From NCBI RefSeq assembly GCF_000300855.1, contig NZ_ALJF01000010.1, positions 186,001 to 250,000 of the forward strand: a stretch of DNA of 64,000 bases, written 5' to 3'. Shown here piece by piece: positions 2,074 through 6,455 of the stretch. The stretch is from Agrobacterium albertimagni AOL15. Lineage in GTDB: Bacteria; Pseudomonadota; Alphaproteobacteria; Rhizobiales; Rhizobiaceae. Within the stretch, counting starts at the first letter, position 1, and each line of letters begins with the position of its first letter. The position numbers and the translations under genes were made by a program. The notes under the pieces are model-generated. The model did no database searches. It saw nothing but the letters and a program-made list of their open reading frames with translations, and was not told the DNA's origin.

Positions 2074-2103
2074 TTGACAAAAACCTGCGCGATGCCATAT
2101 CGG
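2074..2103 (+). promoter_or_regulatory. Candidate promoter of the fluoride operon
   Basis: A perfect TTGACA (2074-2079) is followed after 18 nt by TATCGG, a weak -10 box. The predicted start near 2108-2112 lies just before the riboswitch aptamer. Confidence 0.45.
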
Positions 2104-2120
2104 TTTTGTACGGTAATGGA

Positions 2121-2176
2121 TTCTGCCGGGCATCAAGCCAAACCGCTTCCCCGATGAAGCTGATGACTCCTACTCA
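2121..2176 (+). ncRNA. Fluoride riboswitch (crcB motif) aptamer
   Basis: The segment carries the hallmarks of the crcB RNA motif in order: a GGGCATCAAGCC hairpin, the AAACCGC joining strand, a GCTTC/GAAGC stem, and the conserved 3' element CTGATGACTCCTAC (2160-2173). It sits 95-150 nt upstream of a CLC-F/CrcB operon, the typical target. Fluoride binding to this aptamer switches downstream genes on. The exact ends were set by eye. Confidence 0.85.
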
Positions 2177-2204
2177 GCGCAAGATACGCGAAGGAGTAGA
2201 GTCG
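2163..2204 (+). promoter_or_regulatory. Riboswitch expression-platform hairpin
   Basis: GACTCCTACTC (2164-2174) can pair with GAGTAGAGTC (2194-2203), giving a stem of about 10 bp with one bulged base. This stem uses the conserved 3' part of the aptamer, so aptamer and hairpin should exclude each other. No clean U-run follows directly, so the mechanism (termination or translation control) is not settled by sequence. Confidence 0.55.
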
Positions 2205-2268: not shown

Positions 2269-4083
2269 ATGACGCCCATCTCGATTTTCGGTCTCCGTCT
2301 CCAGCAAATCCGCAGCCTTGCCAAATGGATCGTCATCGTCGTCCCGATGGCGATGGCCGTTGGATCGGTCGTTGCCCTTTTCCTCTGGAGCCTCGACCGC
2401 GCCACCGAATTGCGTTTCGAGTTCCCGTGGCTGATCTACTTCATGCCGGTGGCGGGCTTCGCCATGGTCTGGGCCTATGGCAAATTCGCCAAGGCGGCCG
2501 AAGGTGGCAACAACCTCATTGTCGATCAGATCCACGAGCCCGGCGGCGGCGTCCCGTTGCGCATGGCTCCGTTCATCCTGGTCACAACCGTCCTCACGCA
2601 TCTGGTCGGTGGTTCGGCTGGCCGTGAGGGGACCGCGGTCCAACTCGGCGGAAGCCTCGCCAGCGCCTTCGGCAAGCTGTTCAGACTGGCGCCTGCAGAC
2701 ATCCGGATTCTTCTGATGGCCGGTATTGCCGCAGGCTTTGGCGCAGTCTTTGGAACGCCCATCGCAGGCGCGGTGTTTGCGCTTGAAGTTCTGACCATCG
2801 GGCGGATCCAGTACGAGGCGCTGCTCCCCTCTCTGCTCGCCGCCATCGTCGCCGACTGGACCTGCCATGCCTGGAGCATCGGCCATGTTCAGTATTCGAT
2901 CGTCTATCTTGCAGCCGAAGGGGTCGGCTTTCATCTCGATGCGCTGCTGATGCTGAAAGTGGTAATTGCCGGGGTCGCCTTCGGTATTGCCGCCCACTTC
3001 TTCGCCGAACTCTCGCATCTTGCGTCATCCGCCTACAAGGCGATCCTGCCCTATGCGCCGCTGCGGCCGGTGCTGGCGAGCGCGATCCTGATCGGTCTCG
3101 TCTATGTTCTGGGTACGCGCGAATATCTCGGCCTTGGCGTCTGGTCGCCAAACCCTGAGGACGCAACCATTCTCGGTTTCTTCCGGCCCGACCATGTCGA
3201 TTACTGGAGCTGGGCGTGGAAGGGCCTCTTCACCATCGTGACACTGAGTGCGGGCTTCAAGGGCGGCGAGGTGACACCGCTCTTCTTCATCGGTGCTGCT
3301 CTCGGCAGTGCCGTCGCCGGCGTGCTTGGCGCCCCGCCGGACCTGTTTGCAGCGCTCGGTTTTGTCGCCGTCTTCGCGGGCGCGACCAATACGCCGCTCG
3401 CCTGCATGATCATGGGGATCGAGCTCTTTGGAGCGACCCATTCCGTCTACATCGCGGTCGCCTGCTTCGTTGCCTATCTCTGCAGTGGCCATTCCAGCAT
3501 CTATCTCTCGCAGCGGGTCGGCGTGCCGAAGACGGCCGCCGCCAACGACATTCCCCCTGATATCTCCGTCCGCCACATGCGTGAGATGAGCGCCCAGGCC
3601 AGAGGCGACCTCCTGGCGCAGGTGCGTTTGCGCTCGCTTCGGACAACCGCAAACCTTGCAGAAAGGCCCATCGTCATGACTAGCCACAAGCTTTCTTCGC
3701 GCGAGATCGGGATGGTTCGCATCTATATGAAGCCTCGTGAGAAGGCGCATGGCACGGGCGGGTGGTTCGGCGGCGGCAGGCCGCTCTATCGGGAACTGGT
3801 CGTGCAGGCGAAGGCTGCCGGCATCATGAACGCCGTCGCGCACCGTACCCATTTCGGCTATTCCAACAGCGGCAAGCTGCAGGACGAAGGTTTCGAGATC
3901 CCGAACCCGGATCTCACCATGTGTGTCGAGCTCATCGCTGACCGCGCGTTGCTCGAAGAATTCTGCCGGACCCACGGTGCGCTCTTGAAGAACAAGGTCA
4001 TCATCTACAAGCACATCGAGCACTGGGACGTGCTGGATCATGCGCTGAAGACCGAAGATGCGCTGTCGGACACCGCGCGGTGA
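2269..4083 (+). CDS. CLC-family fluoride/proton antiporter with C-terminal DUF190 domain
   Basis: A 604-residue inner-membrane protein. Residues 1-420 form a CLC channel/antiporter fold with about ten or more hydrophobic helices. The filter-region motif GREGT (about residue 122), [14 protein letters not shown] and [14 protein letters not shown] fit the CLC-F clade, which expels fluoride, rather than chloride CLCs with GSGIP. Residues about 480-595 ([10 protein letters not shown], then [15 protein letters not shown] and [10 protein letters not shown]) resemble DUF190, a PII-like small domain usually encoded as a separate gene beside crcB. A GGAG ribosome binding site precedes the ATG. The fluoride riboswitch upstream and crcB downstream strongly support fluoride export. 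The fusion is unusual, and the DUF190 assignment rests on motif reading. Confidence 0.9.
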
Positions 4084-4093
4084 GGACCTGACC

Positions 4094-4477
4094 ATGCCCT
4101 ACCTGATCGTCTTCCTCGGAGCAGGTTTCGGGGGTGCCGCGCGTCACGCGGTCAATGCGGCGGCCGCCCGGATGCTGGGTTTCGGTTTTCCGTGGGGAAC
4201 GCTCGCCGTCAACATCCTCGGCTCCATCACCATGGGGCTGCTGACGGAGTTCTTCGTGGTTCGCACAGGCCTGCCGCAGGAGCTGCGCCTGTTCATGACG
4301 ACCGGGCTTCTCGGCGGGTTCACGACCTTCTCCACTTTCTCGCTGGACACGGTCACCCTCTGGGAGCGTGGACAGTGGGGGCTTGCAGCAGGCTATGTCG
4401 CTACATCGCTGGTGGTATCAATGGTCGGCCTCTTCCTTGGACTTTCCCTCATCCGTCTGACAGGCCACGGGAGCTGA
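4094..4477 (+). CDS. crcB: Fluoride channel CrcB/Fluc
   Basis: A 127-residue protein with four hydrophobic segments, the usual Fluc size. Fluc proteins form dual-topology dimers that conduct fluoride out of the cell. Signatures seen: GAGFGGAARH near the N-terminus, GTLAVNILGS (the pore Asn region), and GLLGGFTTFSTFS with the Phe-box and Na+-site Thr/Ser residues. It starts 10 bp after the CLC gene with a GAGG ribosome binding site, and its stop overlaps the start of the next gene by one base, so it is cotranscribed. Having both CLC-F and Fluc in one operon gives two independent fluoride exit routes. Confidence 0.95.
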   Translation: MPYLIVFLGAGFGGAARHAVNAAAARMLGFGFPWGTLAVNILGSITMGLLTEFFVVRTGLPQELRLFMTTGLLGGFTTFSTFSLDTVTLWERGQWGLAAGYVATSLVVSMVGLFLGLSLIRLTGHGS

Positions 4478-4917
4478 TGATGAAGACCTTTCTCACGAGC
4501 TGGCCGTTCTGGGCGCTTCTATCGGCGGGATTTGCGGCGCTTACCGCGATTTTCGCCAAGGTCGGCATCGAGAACGTCAATTCCGATTTTGCCACCTTCT
4601 TCCGCACGATCGTGATCCTCATGGCGGCTGGCCTGATGCTGTACATCACGGGCAACTGGCAGGAACCGTCCACCGTCTCGCCTCGGACCTGGCTCTTCCT
4701 GGTCCTCTCCGGACTTGCCACCGGCGCATCATGGATTTGCTACTTCCGGGCACTGAAGCTCGGAGATGCCGCCCGCGTTGCCCCCATCGACAAACTCTCC
4801 GTCGTCTTCGTCTCAGTCTTCGCCGTGCTGTTTCTCGGGGAGCGCCTGTCACTCCCGAACTGGCTTGGTGTCGTCATGATCGGGGTTGGAGCCGTGCTCG
4901 TGGCGTACAGGGCGTAA
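4477..4917 (+). CDS. Small EamA-type transporter (single domain)
   Basis: A 146-residue membrane protein with about five hydrophobic helices, matching one EamA repeat (drug/metabolite transporter superfamily); classical members carry two repeats and ten helices. Conserved EamA features are GLATGASWICYFRALKLGDAA and the PIDKLSVVFVSVFAVLFLGERL stretch near the C-terminus. A one-domain protein must pair with itself or a partner. It begins at the crcB stop (TGATG; a second ATG follows at 4480), so it is translationally coupled in the fluoride operon. Substrate is unknown; operon position suggests a role in fluoride stress. Confidence 0.85.
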   Translation: MMKTFLTSWPFWALLSAGFAALTAIFAKVGIENVNSDFATFFRTIVILMAAGLMLYITGNWQEPSTVSPRTWLFLVLSGLATGASWICYFRALKLGDAARVAPIDKLSVVFVSVFAVLFLGERLSLPNWLGVVMIGVGAVLVAYRA

Positions 4918-4952
4918 GGCGACCAAACACTTCAAGGGGGGAGCAATGCTCG

Positions 4953-5138
4953 ATGCTGAAGGAAGAATGTCTATGGCGCGAGTGGTACGCCTGGTTTCCC
5001 ATCATGCCGGTCGATGATCATCTCTTCTGGCTGGAGCAGGTCTGGCGACGGCGGAACCCCCAAACTGGACGATGGGAATATCGATCATTCCGATCAGACA
5101 GAGAAAAAGAAATCGAAGATTCCGACCGCCCCATTTAG
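4953..5138 (+). CDS. Small Trp-rich hypothetical protein in the fluoride operon
   Basis: A possible 61-residue protein, rich in Trp and charged residues (LWREWYAWFP, FWLEQVWRRR) and ending in an acidic/basic tail. It has no signal peptide or membrane helix. A GGGGGGAG purine run ends about 10 nt before the ATG. It lies between the EamA and enolase genes on the same strand, so it is probably cotranscribed. I do not recognise a named domain. A competing start at 4946 in another frame gives only about 23 residues. Confidence 0.6.
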   Translation: MLKEECLWREWYAWFPIMPVDDHLFWLEQVWRRRNPQTGRWEYRSFRSDREKEIEDSDRPI

Positions 5139-5189: not shown

Positions 5190-6455
5190 ATGAGAGCCTC
5201 TATTGAAAACATCACTGCCTTGGAAATTCTGGATTCCCGTGGGAATCCGACCCTTCGCGTCAGTGTTCACCTCGATAATGGGATTGTGGGCACAGCGTCC
5301 GTCCCTTCCGGGGCGTCAACGGGAGCGAACGAGGCCGTGGAACTTCGGGACGGAGACCCCGACCGATACGGCGGCAAGGGCGTTCGCAAGGCGGTCGACA
5401 ACGTCAACCGGCGGATTGCCCCTCTCCTGAAGGGACATGACCCTTCGCATCAGGCGGCACTCGACGCGGCAATGATCGAACTCGATGGCTCGCCCAACAA
5501 ATCCGAGCTTGGCGCCAACGCGATCCTTGGGGTCTCCCAGGCTCTCAGCCGTGCCGCAGCCGAGAGCCACGGTTTGCCGCTTTATGCCTATCTGGGTGGT
5601 GTCGGTGCCTTTCATCTCCCCATCCCCATGATGAACGTCCTCAACGGTGGCAAGCACGCGGACTCCGGCATGGATTTCCAGGAATTTATGCTCTATCCGC
5701 ACGGCGCGCCGACATTCACTGAAGCCCTCCGCTATGGGGCCGAGACATTCCATGCATTGAAGAGCCTCCTGTCGAAGCGAGGCCTCAGCACCAGTGTCGG
5801 TGACGAAGGCGGGTTTGCACCGAAGCTCAAAAGCAATGAAGAGGCCTGCGAGCTCATTGTCGAGGCGATCGAGGCCGCAGGGTTTCGGCCTGGCGAAGAC
5901 ATAGCCATCGCCCTTGATCCGGCCGCCAGTTCGTTTTTTGAGGGCGGCCTCTATCGACTGACGCGAAGCGGCCAAGGCAACAAGACATCCGAAGAGATGG
6001 TCAGCCTGTTCGAGACCTGGGTCAAAAGATTCCCGATCGTCTCCATCGAAGACAGCCACGATGAGAATGACTGGGACGGCTACAAGGCCATCACCAAGTC
6101 GCTCGGCAATCAGATACAGATCGTCGGCGACGACAATCTCGTCACCAATACCCGTTTCATCGCGAAAGGCATCGAGGAGAAGGCCTGCAATGCGGCTCTG
6201 ATCAAGCTCAACCAGATCGGAACCGTGACGGAAACGATCAGCGCCATCCAGCTCTGCCGGAAGGCAGGATGGAACTACGTCATCTCGCACCGCTCCGGTG
6301 AGACCGAGGACAGTTTCATTGCCGATTTCGCGGTGGCCATGGGGGGAGGGCAGATCAAGACAGGCTCGGCCTCGCGCTCGGACCGCATTTCGAAATATAA
6401 CCGTCTCTTGGAAATCGAGGCGGAGCTTGGCGGCGCAGCCCGGTTCGGGGCATGA
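5190..6455 (+). CDS. eno: Enolase paralog (phosphopyruvate hydratase)
   Basis: A 421-residue enolase, converting 2-phosphoglycerate to phosphoenolpyruvate in glycolysis. The catalytic and Mg-binding set appears intact: DFQEF and GAETFH acidic residues, [17 protein letters not shown] (Asp), [10 protein letters not shown] (Glu), VGDDNLVTN (Asp), IKLNQIGT (Lys), SHRSGETED (His) and QIKTGS (Lys). Several loops differ from the usual housekeeping forms (SHDEND, DDNLVTN, SASRSD), so this is probably a second copy, with the main eno elsewhere. The ATG at 5190 fits the family N-terminus, although its ribosome binding site is weak; GTG at 5142 is possible. Fluoride with phosphate inhibits enolase, so a copy in a fluoride operon probably offsets that block. 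Confidence 0.92.

Follow-up and report, generated by a model that had tools for sequence, protein, structure and literature searches.

A fluoride operon encoding a CLC-F antiporter with a C-terminal DUF190 domain

The DNA analyzed (hereafter the window) is a stretch of 64,000 nucleotides from Agrobacterium albertimagni AOL15 that holds a fluoride riboswitch operon, the features of which are compiled in Table 1. Downstream of the riboswitch aptamer lies a gene encoding a 604-residue protein, followed on the same strand by crcB, an EamA-family transporter gene, a small ORF and an enolase gene. Enolase is a fluoride-sensitive enzyme, and an extra copy of it is typical of operons headed by fluoride riboswitches. 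The small ORF, of 61 residues, has close relatives in the equivalent place on two plasmids (L031, L039), and a longer frame that covers it (4731–5138) matched no Pfam family.

Table 1. Features of the fluoride operon in the window (positions are those of the window)
Feature	Position	Strand	Evidence
Fluoride riboswitch aptamer (RF01734)	2103..2179	+	43.7 bits vs gathering score 34, E 3.9e-11
CLC-F::DUF190 gene (long product)	2269..4083	+	ORF with ATG start, 604 aa; Pfam; match to 6D0J; CLC-F signatures
Voltage_CLC domain	2455..3486	+	Residues 63-406; Pfam E 5.6e-68
Variable linker	3523..3675	+	About residues 419-469; alignment; low pLDDT; varying columns; dN/dS
AGAAAGG, Shine-Dalgarno-like	3660..3666	+	9 bases before internal ATG; duplex energy -3.2
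Proposed internal start codon ATG (Met470)	3676..3678	+	ATG/GTG there in 37/37 non-redundant fused genes
Proposed short product, free DUF190, 135 aa	3676..4083	+	Predicted PII-like fold; Pfam 34.3 bits
PF02641 DUF190 match	3772..4017	+	Residues 502-583; 30.1 bits
crcB (Fluc fluoride channel)	4094..4477	+	PF02537 E 1.6e-27; NF010794 above cut-off
EamA-family transporter, one EamA repeat	4480..4917	+	PF00892 E 1.4e-25
61-residue ORF between EamA gene and enolase	4953..5138	+	
Enolase	5190..6455	+	PF00113, PF03952, TIGR01060

Judged by its sequence, the 604-residue protein is a CLC-F-type fluoride/proton antiporter, transport being predicted, with DUF190 at its C-terminus. Its closest solved structure is 6D0J, a CLC-type fluoride/proton antiporter from Enterococcus (E 1.7e-58, residues 24-418), and it carries GNNLI, GREGT and GEVTP at residues 80, 118 and 333. 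The CLC-F signatures listed in the available part of a 2024 review are GNNLI (or GMGLI), GREGT/V and GEVTP (PMC11139923). The riboswitch and the operon context back a role of the gene in fluoride handling. The Pfam model of DUF190 (PF02641, COG1993) scored 30.1 bits on the full protein (E 5.8e-07; gathering score 23.4) and 34.3 bits on residues 470-604 alone. An earlier note on this DNA had claimed a CLC-F antiporter fused to a PII-like DUF190 domain and named a CBS domain as the alternative outcome of a Pfam search. The fusion was borne out by the two domain matches (Voltage_CLC at residues 63-406, DUF190 at 502-583), the match to 6D0J and the signatures; no CBS domain was listed by Pfam at E≤10, and a CBS-type regulatory tail was discarded as a candidate. 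The note had placed DUF190 in the last ~125 residues; the C-terminal position stood, and with its N-terminal extension included the part spans residues 470-604, that is, 135 residues.

In a full-length predicted model, pLDDT was below 50 for much of residues 409-477, consistent with a flexible tether, and DUF190 was not confidently placed against the membrane domain. Neither PF02641 nor a profile of the CLC-type subfamily detected a second DUF190 in the window's own genome at E≤0.001. Fused genes are named ‘voltage-gated chloride channel family protein’ or ‘DUF190 domain-containing protein’ in database records.

A fluoride riboswitch was found immediately 5' of the CLC gene in 12 of 12 loci of one set and in 10 of 12 of another; of the two exceptions, L078 lacks a riboswitch and L037 carries it within the same cluster, ahead of enolase. 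In L105 (1418–6784), a single fused CLC-F gene is surrounded by four plus-strand fluoride riboswitches in a span of 5.4 kb, and nhaA-I RNA motifs occur near fluoride operons in L067 (6463–6519) and L059 (8794–8851).

The DUF190 domain is predicted to be PII-like

Modelled alone, the DUF190 part is predicted to adopt a beta-alpha-beta-beta-alpha-beta (ferredoxin-like) fold (mean pLDDT 79.5). A loop of lower certainty, near positions 58-81 of the model, lies where PII proteins have the T-loop. The top Foldseek matches of this model were 2DCL, CPII, 1O51 and SbtB, and VIA-align gave Z scores of 10.4 for both 1O51 and 2DCL, 8.7 for CPII and 8.2 for SbtB. A profile of the DUF190 family, compared with solved structures, matched 2DCL (7.9e-23), an entry that holds three chains, and 1O51 (1.5e-16). 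Predicted fold, structural matches and family profile together uphold the PII-like assignment at the level of a prediction. PF02641 matched 46 of 46 family members and the canonical P-II family (PF00543) 1 of 46; PF00543 gave no match to the window's domain at E≤0.01.

Distribution of the CLC/DUF190 pairing

Named genomes were scanned with an alignment of the DUF190 part alone, which yielded 160 pattern matches; 116 of these passed confirmation, and the top 80 were retained. A CLC ORF was present in all of these best 80 of 116 confirmed loci, fused to DUF190 in 49 and directly upstream of it in 31; the fusion is not isolated. The CLC ORF was full in 77 of the best 80 loci (48 fused, 29 adjacent) and partial in the other three, the adjacent L066 and L088 and the fused L076. 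The fusion was seen in Rhizobiales, Roseomonas and sphingomonads, on two contigs titled Verrucomicrobia or Spartobacteria (L121, L103) and on a Nitrospirota plasmid (L170); split forms occur in sphingomonads, Methylobacterium, Burkholderiales and Pseudomonas, on two Bacteroidota plasmids (L036, L037) and on a Klebsiella plasmid. The DUF190 type found in the fusions is a separate subfamily that has CLC-F as its neighbour.

A collection of 126 CLC rows was also compiled, which includes a copy of the window (L001) and some near-copies, and from which duplicates (L122-L145) and partial CLC ORFs were dropped. It comprised 58 fused rows, 45 adjacent rows (one of which, L172, has a short DUF190 piece only) and 23 rows without a CLC-type DUF190 nearby, counts that are not natural frequencies because the sample was enriched by the DUF190 search and because six rows are not CLC-F. 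These six, among the 23 (L149-L154, from three genomes), lack the CLC-F signatures; they are outgroup CLCs and were therefore not counted as CLC-F. CLC-F without DUF190 nearby was found in eight genomes (G117, G550, G988, G855, G800, G937, G930 and G806). Whole-genome searches of these eight with two models detected no DUF190 in seven, and one located elsewhere in G937; the CLC-type DUF190 of G836, G925 and G864 escapes PF02641 but is found by the second model. Since CLC-F genomes without any DUF190 exist, DUF190 is an accessory of CLC-F and not needed for CLC-F as such.

On a quick CLC tree of 82 of the 126 rows, built without bootstrap, the fused, adjacent and absent states required 18 changes, gain and loss being indistinguishable. 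One CLC-F gene, from Rhizobium sp. BG6 (L041, 4423–5826, plus strand), falls in a mostly fused clade, yet no DUF190 was seen within the 10.3 kb examined. A motif of the CLC-F tail specific to DUF190 was sought by eye, and the ‘LR..R’ tail was also present in relatives without DUF190.

Several unusual arrangements were observed. Tandem double CLC-F/DUF190 pairs are present on two Sphingomonas contigs (L094, 2644–6423, and L100, 2645–6423, plus strand). At L108, L109, L112 and L113 an intact CLC-F/DUF190 pair is adjoined by a second, divergent cluster (3266–4374, minus strand), which has kept CrcB and DUF190 and retains CLC-F only as a 157-residue C-terminal piece. For the Nitrospirota fusion in L170 (4411–6186, plus strand) and a Burkholderia DUF190 in L038 (5816–6178, plus strand), no gene is listed in the (incomplete) plasmid table.

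DUF190 genes and crcB

The earlier note had also described DUF190 as normally a separate small protein beside crcB, a statement that proved valid for part of the family. Within the order to which the window belongs, the 18 best-scoring stand-alone DUF190 loci (L002-L019) adjoin crcB and 11 weaker ones (L020-L030) lack CrcB, so that CrcB accompanies 18 of the 29 fetched loci; among the weaker loci, scans of L022 and L029 showed better matches to P-II than to DUF190. In a phylum-wide sample of 27 newly fetched loci (L179-L205), with 2.0-3.3 kb of DNA each, CrcB was present in three and absent from 24. A general rule that DUF190 means fluoride was dropped on account of these 24 loci.

Five loci (L078, L103, L121, L168, L169) hold both kinds of DUF190, the CLC-type at CLC-F and the crcB-type at CrcB. 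A clean rule that each exporter has its own DUF190 fits these five and fails at L115, L161, L162, L165 and L173, where a crcB-type DUF190 occurs without CrcB in the DNA examined (L161 and L173 are apparently the same plasmid).

A conserved internal start codon in the fused genes

The start of stand-alone CLC-type DUF190 genes mostly lies 9-13 codons upstream of a conserved glycine, and in a few cases closer to it. An in-frame ATG or GTG was found at this position in all 56 fused rows that could be evaluated and, after reduction to non-redundant genes (<90% identity), in 37 of 37 (33 ATG, 4 GTG), as compared with counts of 1, 0, 2, 5, 2, 6, 11 and 12 (out of 37) for eight consecutive upstream control windows, each four codons long. 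The internal-start statistics leave out L001 and also L170, which was inspected by hand because the anchor pattern did not match it. On the CLC tree, with 39 fused rows, the start column underwent 4 changes, all between ATG and GTG, and the 30 linker columns that precede it 14 to 30 changes apiece; these columns were counted off from the start codon without gaps, and it is the 37/37 comparison that gives an unbiased count. GTG is the sole valine codon one step from ATG, and its retention in a five-member valine clade is weak evidence, as 8 of 33 all-valine columns keep one codon in all five members.

Predicted pairing with the anti-Shine-Dalgarno sequence reached its optimum at the internal start (-4.34 kcal/mol, versus 0.1 to 0.8 at 4-7 codons further upstream) and was stronger there than at the 433 additional in-frame ATGs that these genes contain (mean -2.03, p=6e-8); a second low of the profile, -2.8 to -3.6, lies 13 to 15 codons past the start. 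The strength of this pairing did not exceed that expected from the encoded residues, 31 of 200 synonymous sets being as low. We interpret the residues as following the Shine-Dalgarno sequence, not the reverse, because these residues differ between genes.

The mRNA at the internal start was the least structured of 121 codons sampled in steps (MFE -3.64, against a same-gene background of -10.55), and in 34 of 37 genes the site fell in the open quartile. Synonymous codon choice keeps the start open (MFE -3.75 versus -6.07 for synonymous codons, p=1.4e-7), and the effect held in more diverse gene sets (n=26, p 3.8e-6; n=20, p 1.9e-6; n=15, p 4.3e-4), although these p-values overstate independence because the rows are related, and are upper bounds on confidence rather than exact. 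No such openness beyond synonymous chance was seen at 11 other positions (p 0.077-0.98), and at 31 systematic control positions the lowest p was 0.0058 and the largest effect 1.1 kcal/mol, compared with 2.3 at the internal start.

These computations show sequence-level selection on the internal start across the family, with a conserved start codon that has its own ribosome-binding region, except that the Shine-Dalgarno strength does not go beyond residue choice. The conserved start codon suggests that the fused gene would also make free DUF190 as a separate protein, and that it is probably not a simple fusion.

The internal start in the window and its relatives

At the window's own site openness was modest (MFE -4.0 versus -5.75, 26% of synonymous controls being as open), as are its own signals generally, and the case for two products from this gene would rest on the family. 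The separate Nitrospirota fusion in L170 has a methionine, Met467, at the domain start with a Shine-Dalgarno value of -5.3, and failed the openness test (MFE -6.0 versus -6.65, 45% of synonymous controls being as open).

A split gene (L051) and a fused gene (L053) that are sisters on the tree have an AAGGTCC stretch and an ATG in common at their junctions. In L051, minor sequence differences shift the CLC frame relative to that of DUF190, and its stop overlaps the ATG; DUF190 therefore starts independently there, at the shared ATG. In L053 the equivalent Shine-Dalgarno-like bases and ATG lie inside the fused frame. The linker showed dN/dS values of 0.06-0.37 in 15 close fused pairs from among the window, L031, L039, L042, L043 and L068, with few substitutions in each and values for the linker only. 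This protein-level constraint in close relatives indicates that the long form is also used. Production of both a long and a short protein from one frame would explain the site shared by L051 and L053 as well as the constraint on the linker.

A proposed mechanism and its alternatives

CLC proteins are dimers, and 6D0J has two chains. PII-like proteins function as trimers, according to the available text of PMC1779786. A PII-like trimer tethered to a dimeric CLC therefore poses a symmetry problem, with two copies for three places, which a free subunit made from the same message would solve. We propose that full-length translation would yield a CLC-F antiporter carrying the PII-like DUF190 on a flexible cytoplasmic tether, and that initiation at the internal ATG would yield free DUF190. 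The DUF190 copies would then assemble into a PII-like trimer, most simply from two tethered copies of the CLC dimer and one free copy, that would sit at the cytoplasmic face of the antiporter. From there, the loop between strands 2 and 3, at the T-loop position, would tune the proton-coupled export of fluoride in response to a ligand in the cytoplasm, which is probably an adenine nucleotide. We infer the making of the short product, the trimer and its stoichiometry, the docking, the ligand and the direction of regulation; for trimer, ligand and gating the inference is by analogy, gating of CLC-F by DUF190 being plausible in view of GlnK-AmtB and SbtB-SbtA. That one frame gives two products whose tethered and free DUF190 copies form a PII-like trimer tuning CLC-F is a prediction with about an even chance of being right. 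Its most specific version, an asymmetric (CLC-F-DUF190)2-DUF190 complex whose trimer is closed by the internally initiated subunit and which tunes fluoride export, is more tentative and somewhat doubtful.

A simpler possibility is that only the full-length protein matters, the internal start being a relic of fusion and the tethered DUF190 modulating transport within or between dimers. Retention of the long frame, the constraint on the linker in close relatives, the fact that encoded residues account for the Shine-Dalgarno signal and the modest start signals of the window all agree with this, but a relic would be expected to decay like the linker, whereas the start codon is present in 37 of 37 genes despite 14-30 changes in each of the preceding linker columns, and synonymous codons keep the site open at the start only. 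We consider this explanation unlikely. Just as unlikely is a role for DUF190 in assembly, stability or scaffolding, or as a binder of fluoride or a metal species, without ligand-controlled gating: the strict pairing does point to a partner and not to a sensor, but the structure titles of CPII and SbtB, its closest folds among solved structures, denote regulators that bind nucleotides, and the existence of CLC-F proteins without DUF190 means that the domain is not generally needed for folding. That DUF190 acts mainly on another operon product, for instance CrcB, its tie to CLC-F being incidental, is improbable: crcB does lie directly downstream in the window and adjoins the 18 top-scoring stand-alone DUF190 genes found in the order, but among the best 80 CLC/DUF190 loci CrcB occurs in only 30 (in the DNA examined) and begins ≤500 nt downstream of DUF190 in 15, compared with CLC in 80 of 80, and L078, L103, L121, L168 and L169 carry a second, crcB-type DUF190 with CrcB.

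Relation to known systems

The proposed CLC-F/DUF190 system resembles AmtB-GlnK and SbtA-SbtB in having a small PII-like protein whose gene accompanies or serves a single transporter, and which is thought to act at the cytoplasmic face of that transporter; in those systems the regulator docks on the transporter, in a nucleotide-dependent manner for SbtB. Unlike AmtB and SbtA, which are trimers with separate regulators, the partner in the window is a CLC of a dimeric family to which the regulator is tethered. 6D0J has the same membrane domain and signatures, but its solved chain, of 421 residues, lacks DUF190, and the match ends at its residue 405. The phage endolysins Lys170 and LysIME-EF1 likewise derive a long product and its own C-terminal domain from one frame, and the available text of PMC9430671 describes for such two-product endolysins an internal translation start and assembly of one long with three short chains; these are, however, cell-wall hydrolases with a demonstrated short product, whereas that of CLC-F::DUF190 is predicted. 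In SA1388, of the NIF3 family, a PII-like domain lies inside a larger protein and forms trimers with the copies of other chains, as described in the available part of PMC1779786. It differs in being soluble and hexameric, a ring with a symmetry that accommodates trimers from the outset, and in having no internal start.

Modulation of neighbouring transport proteins by DUF190 is already known as a proposal: in 2012, stand-alone DUF190 proteins of Pelobacter were suggested to be GlnK-like modulators of this kind (available text of PMC3543383). That proposal concerned other transport proteins and no fusion, and the same text mentions neither fluoride nor crcB. No occurrence of DUF or PII was found in the available part of a 2017 study of an Enterobacter cloacae fluoride operon (PMC5533749), nor of DUF, PII, fused or fusion in the 2024 CLC-F review (PMC11139923), the available part of which describes control of CLC-F at the level of expression, by the riboswitch. 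PII partners are portrayed as transporters working as trimers in the available text of PMC10710835. In an open-licence PMC library we found no paper on the pairing of DUF190 with CLC-F, and neither PII-type control of a dimeric transporter nor of a fluoride exporter was found described.

With a dedicated PII-like partner, the activity of CLC-F would come under control as well, which would make sense in an exporter that works at the expense of the proton gradient, and the uncharacterised DUF190 family gains a concrete partner and an assay. Were two products made as proposed, they would show a way for a regulator of threefold symmetry to match a transporter of twofold symmetry, in contrast to the trimeric PII partners portrayed in PMC10710835. 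This would be a new mode of connecting regulator and transporter, and would show that annotation can miss a free regulator hidden in a fused gene.

In the four loci of the phylum-wide sample that were inspected (L184, L187, L192, L199), from another proteobacterial family, stand-alone DUF190 adjoins an ORF that by eye resembles a CRP/FNR-type regulator. From these neighbours, DUF190 may be a general PII-like partner protein.
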